This document shows positions 6,257-36,977 of a stretch of DNA of 39,012 nucleotides, one piece after another. Under the pieces are notes generated by a model. It did no database searches. It saw nothing but the letters and a program-made list of their open reading frames with translations, and was not told where the DNA came from. The position numbers were made by a program, and so were the translations under genes. The DNA is taken from NCBI GenBank assembly GCA_905233645.1, contig CAJODZ010000009.1, positions 1 through 39,012 of the forward strand. Direction: 5' to 3'. The stretch is from an uncultured Synergistales bacterium (GTDB lineage Bacteria; Synergistota; Synergistia; Synergistales; Aminobacteriaceae). Positions within the stretch are counted from its first letter, which is position 1. Every line of letters starts with the position of its first letter.

Positions 6257-6291
6257 AACAGTCTCTAAAAATTCGGAGGCTGTTATTTTTT
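6257..6291 (+). terminator. Rho-independent terminator of the hisHAF unit
   Basis: AACAGTCTC-N10-GAGGCTGTT followed by ATTTTTT; 9 bp stem with one G-U pair. Confidence 0.8.
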
Positions 6292-6385
6292 GCAACTACG
6301 TTTACAACTACAAAGAGCTTTTTAAAAATTAGTCCCTGCAAAATTTTTCAGAAATATTTTAAAAAACAAAGTGTCGATTTTTTTT
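6286..6385 (+). repeat. Two-box intergenic repeat, copy 1
   Basis: TTTTTGCAACTACGTTTACAACTACAAAGAGCTTT ... AAACAAAGTGTCGATTTTTTTT; 73 bp from the GCAAC start to the AACAAAG start. Confidence 0.75.
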
Positions 6386-30757: not shown

Positions 30758-30843
30758 GATTGTGTGAAATTTTTTATCACATGTCTTATAATAACGCATA
30801 TAATTTTCTGACCAAATAGATTTTTAATTCGTAATACCCTTAT

Positions 30844-30942
30844 TTTTTGCAACTACGTTTACAACTACAAAAAAGCTTTCACAAATTTAATCACTAACTT
30901 TAAAAAAACATTTTGTTTTTTAAACAAAGTATCAATTTTTTT
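30844..30942 (+). repeat. Two-box intergenic repeat, copy 2
   Basis: TTTTTGCAACTACGTTTACAACTACAAAAAAGCTTT ... AAACAAAGTATCAATTTTTTT; 74 bp box spacing. Confidence 0.75.
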
Positions 30943-31154
30943 AGACGCTATTTTTAAAATTCATTTACTAAAAAAGTTTGACCAATAAATTTTTGAAAAC
31001 ATTGGCTTGAAAAATTTTTAATGCTTTTTAATATGAACATGTTTATAAAATATGCTTGCCCTTGTGAATGTTCATTCAAAAATTTTGCATACATATTTGA
31101 TTTTTATGCAAGTGCCGCAAAAATTTAAATACTCTGCATTTATTCTAAGTATAT

Positions 31155-33559: not shown

Positions 33560-34498
33560 TTAATTAAGGGGAGCAATTCTTTTTATGCCGTTTAATAATT
33601 CCTCAAGAGCATGTAAATTAGCAGCGTCTTTTAAATCTTTTGCTAACGTGAAAATTTTATATAACCTGTCATTTTGTGAAGGCGTTAATAATTCTTGAAT
33701 GAGCATAAAATCTTTTTCAAGTGCTTTTAGCCTGGCTTCTGCATTATTATTTTTGTCATGGACACCGGCTAATAAACTCGTACCGTTTAAAATAATATTA
33801 TTTATAAATTCAGGCTTAATTTTTAATTCGCTATATAACAAATTTTTCACAATGGGTATATTTATTAAACCGCCGGTGATAAAAATCTTTTCAGGCTCGT
33901 AAATTCGTATGTTGCTATTTAGAAAATTTATCACGTCAAAAATCTCAAAACGAATTAAACGTTCAAAATCTTCGCGCAAAACTTTTCGCCCGTTTAATTT
34001 GATTATTTCACGTTCTGATAAATCACGTTTTAAAGCTCCGGCCTCGTTGTCGTTAATTTCGTTCGATAAACGCAAGCTTAAATATTTTGCAAAAATGTTA
34101 TCGAATTTGTTGCCGCTGAAATTTTTTAATGTCAAGTTTTTCTCAACAGCACTATTAGAAATTATTTCAAGCTCCGAATTTAAATAACCCGCGTCCAAAA
34201 TTAAGAATGTTTTATTGGAGTTGACAAATTTGATTTTAGCCTGAGTTTTCGTAATAAATTTAACGTTCTCAAATCCGGCCTCGTTGGCTGTTGATTTAAT
34301 AGCGTTCAGTTTTTCAGCCGAGTATTCGTCAGGAACAGCAATAACACAAGAGTTTACGAACTCGTTAAAAAATATCTCACTGCCTTCACGAATTTCTAAT
34401 AAAGTTTTTCCGGACGTTATAAACTTAATTTCATGGCCGTCAAAAAATCCGGCGCGTAAATTTTTAGTCCCGTAATCAATAGCTATCGACTGCTGCAA
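33560..34498 (-). CDS. Divergent Hsp70/actin-fold ATPase with short helical C-terminus
   Basis: IAIDYGTKNLRAGFFDG phosphate-1-like, FLILDAGYLNSELEII phosphate-2-like, IFITGGLINIPIVKNLL adenosine-like motif. Confidence 0.72.
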   Translation of the reverse strand: MQQSIAIDYGTKNLRAGFFDGHEIKFITSGKTLLEIREGSEIFFNEFVNSCVIAVPDEYSAEKLNAIKSTANEAGFENVKFITKTQAKIKFVNSNKTFLILDAGYLNSELEIISNSAVEKNLTLKNFSGNKFDNIFAKYLSLRLSNEINDNEAGALKRDLSEREIIKLNGRKVLREDFERLIRFEIFDVINFLNSNIRIYEPEKIFITGGLINIPIVKNLLYSELKIKPEFINNIILNGTSLLAGVHDKNNNAEARLKALEKDFMLIQELLTPSQNDRLYKIFTLAKDLKDAANLHALEELLNGIKRIAPLN

Positions 34499-36715: not shown

Positions 36716-36814
36716 AAAAAATTTAACACTTTGTTTCAAACTCGACATGCTTAAAAATTATGCGGCTGTTAAATTTTAAAAAGATTTTTTGTAGTGGTAA
36801 ACGTAGTTGCAAAA
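36716..36814 (-). repeat. Two-box intergenic repeat, copy 3
   Basis: Minus strand TTTTGCAACTACGTTTACCACTACAAAAAATCTTT ... AAACAAAGTGTTAAATTTTTTAC; 75 bp box spacing. Confidence 0.75.
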
Positions 36815-36977
36815 CTCAATATGATTTTTTAATTTGAAAAGATAATTTTGGGTGAAAAATATTATATCAAAAGTTTTTTGGAATATTCTTCACCGCGTCA
36901 ACTGAACAAGCATATTCATCATAATGTTAGAGTATAATTACTCAGAAAATTTTTATGAACGAAAGGATTTTTAACGC

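Follow-up and report, generated by a model that had tools for sequence, protein, structure and literature searches.

A two-box intergenic element spaced evenly along the chromosomes of rumen Synergistaceae

Non-coding elements of about 160 bp, each with two conserved boxes, recur at regular intervals (13-18 kb) round the chromosomes of rumen Synergistaceae, a pattern suggestive of a system that marks or organises the whole genome. The analysis, which used MAG sequences, shows the architecture of the family and its genome-wide copy number, near-random orientation to genes, species-specific coupled half-sites, purifying selection in place, even spacing, and turnover of positions between distant species. 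Three copies lie in the window, the whole 39,012-nucleotide stretch of DNA that was analysed, which is contig C9 of a MAG of 1.57 Mb and 80% completeness (G000). The closest named relatives of the gdhA gene of the window belong to Synergistaceae MAGs from the rumen of goat, sheep and deer. No known family fits the element among the families tested, and no description of such an element was found in the literature covered by open-access papers.

A preliminary description of the window had reported two shared boxes at three sites, offset by 73, 74 and 75 bp. Both boxes match exactly at all three sites and the offsets are confirmed (Table 1). By chance, the window would be expected to hold 0 exact matches to box 1 in shuffles and 0.26 to box 2, and a full-sensitivity model scan of the window returned three copies only, with the next best match at E = 0.01. 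Copy 3 sits between the divergent genes nadE and prmA. Elements assigned to class B, including copy 2 of the window and L071, have flanking (T)CTGACCAAW repeats approximately 170-190 bp apart; the two flanks of L071 have about 25 identical bases in common. Beside mtaB and prmA the window also contains a 312-aa ORF (33560-34498, minus strand) with a weak MreB/actin-like Pfam match that falls under the curated cut-off.

Table 1. Parts of the three element copies in the window.
Copy	Feature	Position	Strand	Basis or remark
1	Weak -10-like GATTATAA, overlapping the hisF stop codon	6240..6247	+	Sequence; scores poorly in -10 scan
1	Terminator-like hairpin AACAGTCTC..GGAGGCTGTT and T-run	6257..6291	+	
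1	Box 1, tandem 12-bp repeat CAACTACGTTTACAACTAC and A-run	6293..6316	+	Exact match 6292-6314
1	Middle, constrained length, semi-conserved sequence	6317..6363	+	
1	Box 2	6364..6384	+	Exact match
2	-10 hexamer TATAAT, 63 bp upstream of box 1	30787..30792	+	-10 scan
2	Class B spacer motif CTGACCAAATA	30808..30818	+	Partner TGACCAATAA at 30979-30988
2	Box 1	30850..30873	+	Exact match 30849-30871
2	Box 2	30922..30942	+	Exact match
3	Extended -10 TTTGATATAAT	36861..36871	-	-10 scan
3	Box 1 (CAACTACGTTTACCACTAC and A-run)	36787..36809	-	Exact match 36788-36810
3	Box 2	36716..36736	-	Exact match

The genome-wide family predicted from these three copies exists. Box 1 (CAACTACNTTTACNACTAC) occurs in 89 exact copies in G000, and the reversed control pattern in 0. 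Allowing <=3 mismatches adds approximately 11-13 more, including three with one mismatch and six with two, so that elements including near matches number about 100. With so few near-match forms beside the 89 exact ones, box 1 is almost letter-perfect across the G000 copies, while the remainder of the element is variable. Box 2 is found exactly at 55 places in this genome, nearly all with a box 1 partner. Searched with a sequence model spanning box 1 to box 2, 25 of 43 genomes in the genus carry the element, and roughly ten of these have 20-86 copies each; since the model derives from the G000 dialect, these counts are to be read as minimum values. The other 18 genomes yield no match to it; they may lack the system, or may carry dialects that the model does not recognise. 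The exact G000 dialect is absent from the genome-contig and viral-contig collections searched and is specific to G000 among the genomes searched. A named example from a relative is L103, from Synergistaceae RGIG3442 (goat rumen), in which every part of the element is present in the ATCAGCTAC dialect.

In order, the element consists of an extended -10 promoter, a variable stretch of about 45 bp and a T-run, followed by box 1 and, beyond a middle of about 47 bp, by box 2. The promoter, the tandem 12-bp structure of box 1, the dialects and the even spacing were all overlooked in the preliminary description. Strong extended -10 sequences of the best-score class precede 47/89 copies in G000, mostly 54-65 bp upstream of box 1, compared with 0-2/89 at control offsets; in the complete genome of the relative G035 they precede 67/74 copies (0-2 at control offsets). 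The distance from promoter to box 1 varies (-45 to -72), making a tight promoter-box mechanism unlikely. A strong terminator-like hairpin ends the stretch between promoter and box 1 in approximately 62% of copies in G000 and 28% in G035 (shuffled sequences, <=1%), and is commoner where the upstream gene lies on the same strand (odds ratio 4-6). The offset from box 1 to box 2 is 73 bp in 15 copies of G000, 74 bp in one and 75 bp in 57, and it is 72 bp in G035, a distance that would be close to seven helical turns. The DNA between the boxes, earlier called divergent, is not simply so: across copies it keeps a recurring skeleton that occurs in two lengths, 2 bp apart. Apart from the class A hairpin, no consensus RNA fold was found over the interval between the boxes, and no conserved RNA structure spans it; no Rfam family matches an element, in agreement with the preliminary description, which recognised no named riboswitch or T-box in it. 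Phasing of A-tracts at the helical 10-11 bp is not above control. A/T-tract blocks do occur every 18 bp or so, between the boxes and within them, from +34 to +88 relative to box 1, in both G000 and G035, and not at the 10.5-bp helical period. Terminal inverted repeats were not detected in G000 (end-to-end inverted similarity 9.9 vs 9.6 in the reversed control), and element ends in G035 display weak AT-rich inverted similarity only (11.0 vs 8.8).

Box 1 in the relatives is likewise a tandem 12-bp repeat, the halves of which agree with each other and co-vary between species. Dialects include ACAACTACATTT-ACAACTAC (G006, G021), TCAACTACATTT-TCAACTAC (G013, G036, G042), GCCACTACATTT-GCCACTAC (G017, G028), ATCAGCTACTTT-ATCAGCTAC (G020), and ACAGCTAC pairs (G031, G034, G040). 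Two box 1 types, GCAACTACATTTACACCTAC and GGGGACTACAATGGGGACTAC, occur together in each of G035 and G007, and the coupling of half-sites also holds in the GGGG dialect. At one orthologous site both halves have changed, L292 reading GCCACAAC..GCCACAAC and L325 ACCACTAC..ACTACTAC. Because the halves are coupled, box 1 is probably read twice by one and the same recognition surface, in the simplest case that of a putative tandem DNA-binding protein.

The in-depth analysis of spacing covered two genomes, using within-contig gaps in G000 and the complete sequence of G035. The 48 gaps in G000 average 12.8 kb with a CV of 0.46, against 0.86 for random placement (0/5000 as low), and only 3 are shorter than 5 kb where 16 would be expected. 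Taken singly, the dialects of G035 are less regular: the GCAAC-type (59 copies) is near random (CV 0.94) and the GGGG-type (41 copies) has a CV of 0.74. Together they leave 85 gaps with a mean of 17.75 kb and a CV of 0.445 vs 0.942 at random (0/5000), with 6 gaps under 8 kb vs 32 expected. Only one GGGG copy has a GCAAC neighbour within 6 kb, where 12.8 would be expected, and a null limited to intergenic slots gives a CV of 0.91, never below 0.67. The low combined CV, the mutual avoidance and the passing of the intergenic-slot null establish that the two dialects fill one another's gaps. In G006 and G018 all 16 listed within-contig gaps exceed 9 kb, which is consistent with evenness, if weakly so.

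Selection in place was assessed in one species pair, G035 and G007, whose genes flanking the elements have a median protein identity of 97%. Among 57 matched loci one probably holds no element, leaving 56 aligned pairs; since the share of G035 loci that were matched (76%) is about the completeness of G007 (75%), little selection by detection is expected. The T-run and box 1 together have 2.3% substitutions, box 2 has 3.0%, the middle 5.2% and the spacer between promoter and box 1 6.0%; other intergenic DNA has 6.6% and third codon positions 12.5%. Box 1 and the middle each show 0.28% indel events per site, against 1.7% in the promoter-box 1 spacer and 1.97% in intergenic DNA, so that indels between the boxes are sevenfold fewer than in intergenic DNA. 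Of 357 promoter positions in the TG and the hexamer, 0 have changed, vs 6.9% in the flanks (p = 8e-11). These substitution, indel and promoter figures show that the promoter, both boxes and the distance between them are functional in place, as the preliminary description had supposed of the element as a whole; the sequence of the predicted transcript in between is not. Since the sequence from promoter to box 1 evolves near the intergenic rate, a sequence-specific RNA is disfavoured.

With genes called by simple ORF rules, the G000 copies are intergenic, with clear coding exceptions in 2/89. Random orientation or spacing, or copies inside coding regions, had been named beforehand as grounds for doubting a functional element; orientation is indeed near random, but the box spacing is constant and few copies are coding. 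The three window copies do point, loosely, to a downstream gene as first described, but genome-wide the downstream gene lies on the element strand in only 48/84 cases (p = 0.23). No strand bias relative to replication was seen by GC skew. Just one pair of copies lies very close together; it flanks aroD, which is neither a transposase nor a DNA-binding gene.

Positions turn over. Between G000 and G035 no site has the same neighbour genes to its left and right (0 sites), from which it follows that positions have turned over at approximately 60-70% protein identity. One candidate empty site was found in G035, at C5:9047-10966, which instead holds a restriction-modification-like two-gene locus (a DNA methyltransferase and a probable nuclease); G007 has an element there (L181). 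HemC of G000 (L058, C25:20546-21505) carries a 21-residue in-frame insertion that is absent in 11 aligned relatives and contains box 1 read backwards (VVVNVVAK) together with part of the upstream stretch; judged from this alignment, box 1-bearing DNA can evidently be inserted. The insertion resembles Rickettsia palindromic elements inside genes. The second coding box 1 (L034, G000:C11 near 11400) lies in a low-complexity FliK-like (flagellar hook-length) ORF in the same frame (VVVNVVA).

Several explanations compete for these observations. Regulation in cis, with the element as promoter or leader of the downstream gene, was suggested at the outset and draws on the promoter, on the three window copies that precede genes and on a weak bias in G035 (45/72 downstream genes on the element strand, p = 0.04). 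It is now very unlikely indeed, since orientation in G000 is near random: same-same (24), divergent (24), convergent (20) and both-opposite (16) arrangements are nearly equal. A leader or operator is further opposed by the commonness of convergent contexts, by the hairpin and T-run that would stop transcription between promoter and gene, and by neighbour genes that are not conserved between species. A large family of small-RNA genes, whose shared box 1 would serve for base-pairing or for protein binding, would account for the conserved promoter, the fixed direction and the rigid length from box 1 to box 2; it is nonetheless improbable, as the hairpin and T-run ahead of box 1 would leave that box largely untranscribed in about 62% of G000 copies, neither a consensus fold between the boxes nor an Rfam match speaks for it, and the even spacing is left unexplained. 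Highly doubtful, too, is a role in natural transformation, as a DNA uptake signal that differs in dialect from species to species as the Neisseria DUS does. Like DUS and USS, the element has dialects, is evenly spread and orientation-neutral, and often lies by terminators, and the distribution of USS along genomes is relatively even (PMC7811141). Unlike them it is 10-20 times sparser (one per 13-18 kb instead of about 1 per kb), it has almost no one-off variants (3 one-mismatch forms vs 89 exact, unlike gradual accumulation), and its bipartite unit of about 160 bp, with a constrained promoter and a rigid 73-75 bp module, finds no explanation in uptake.

A stronger rival, although unlikely on balance, is a selfish MITE-like element moved in trans by a transposase or recombinase that binds box 1, the dialects being its specificities and the evenness a result of target immunity. 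Mobility is indicated by position turnover and by the in-frame hemC insertion with its box 1, and the second subfamily with its own box 1 would also fit. Known promoter-bearing MITEs such as Correia (CREE) resemble the element in being 100-200 bp long, intergenic and present in about 100 copies, with terminator-like parts and sigma70-like promoters (PMC10969869). The element differs from them in its regular spacing along the chromosome, in its tandem 12-bp dialect sites, in the absence of clear terminal inverted repeats in G000, and in a promoter and box spacing constrained in place: orthologous copies keep promoter, boxes and box spacing, which is not expected of idle copies. Immunity would moreover need to act across two dialects, and no autonomous copy was seen. 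REP/BIME sequences are likewise extragenic and present in many copies, and the reverse strand of box 1 contains GTAG, but the element is not palindromic and is evenly spaced, and Y1_Tnp/RAYT has 0 matches in G035 (100% complete), G006, G018 and G013, all of them element-rich. A purely selfish element leaves constraint in place and interleaved dialects unexplained.

The copies may well be transcribed sites, set at regular distances, on which a dialect-specific DNA-binding protein docks, with a probable role in chromosome organisation. This reading accounts for the largest share of the observations, and we favour it tentatively and at somewhat less than an even chance. The lack of shared sites between G000 and G035 and the hemC insertion, it must be said, also fit a mobile element with immunity. 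Under the docking-site reading, a sequence-specific protein would bind the 12-bp repeats of box 1 as a tandem pair, and a partner at box 2 would join it in a nucleoprotein complex. RNA polymerase would start at the promoter and be halted at the T-run by the hairpin, the bound protein or both, and what matters would be that transcription takes place next to a fixed complex, not the RNA itself. Sites every 13-18 kb might then act in chromosome organisation, as boundaries of topological domains or as anchor or loading points, and new copies would come by insertion and be retained where spacing demands. The sites are dispersed, regular and constrained, as chromosome-organising sites should be. The matS, Noc/SlmA and parS sites number tens to about 100, are dispersed and are read by a sequence-specific protein; they are short palindromes without promoters. 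The element shares with them its tens to about 100 dispersed sites and a predicted protein reader, and departs from them in being a direct repeat within a rigid 100-bp module and in its turnover of dialects.

It is possible, though more speculative, that the family forms a genome-wide ruler, in which about 100 transcribed two-site elements, with two interleaved dialects tiling the chromosome every 18 kb or so, would define domains by way of dialect-specific DNA-binding proteins and gain new sites by insertion. Should the family prove to be a mobile element instead, its conserved copies and an immunity reaching across dialects would make it unusual. The division of bacterial chromosomes into domains, and the question whether dedicated sequence sites set their spacing, have long been open problems; the element gives a direct handle on them, since box 1 DNA may serve to fish out the binding protein and the sites can be tested singly.
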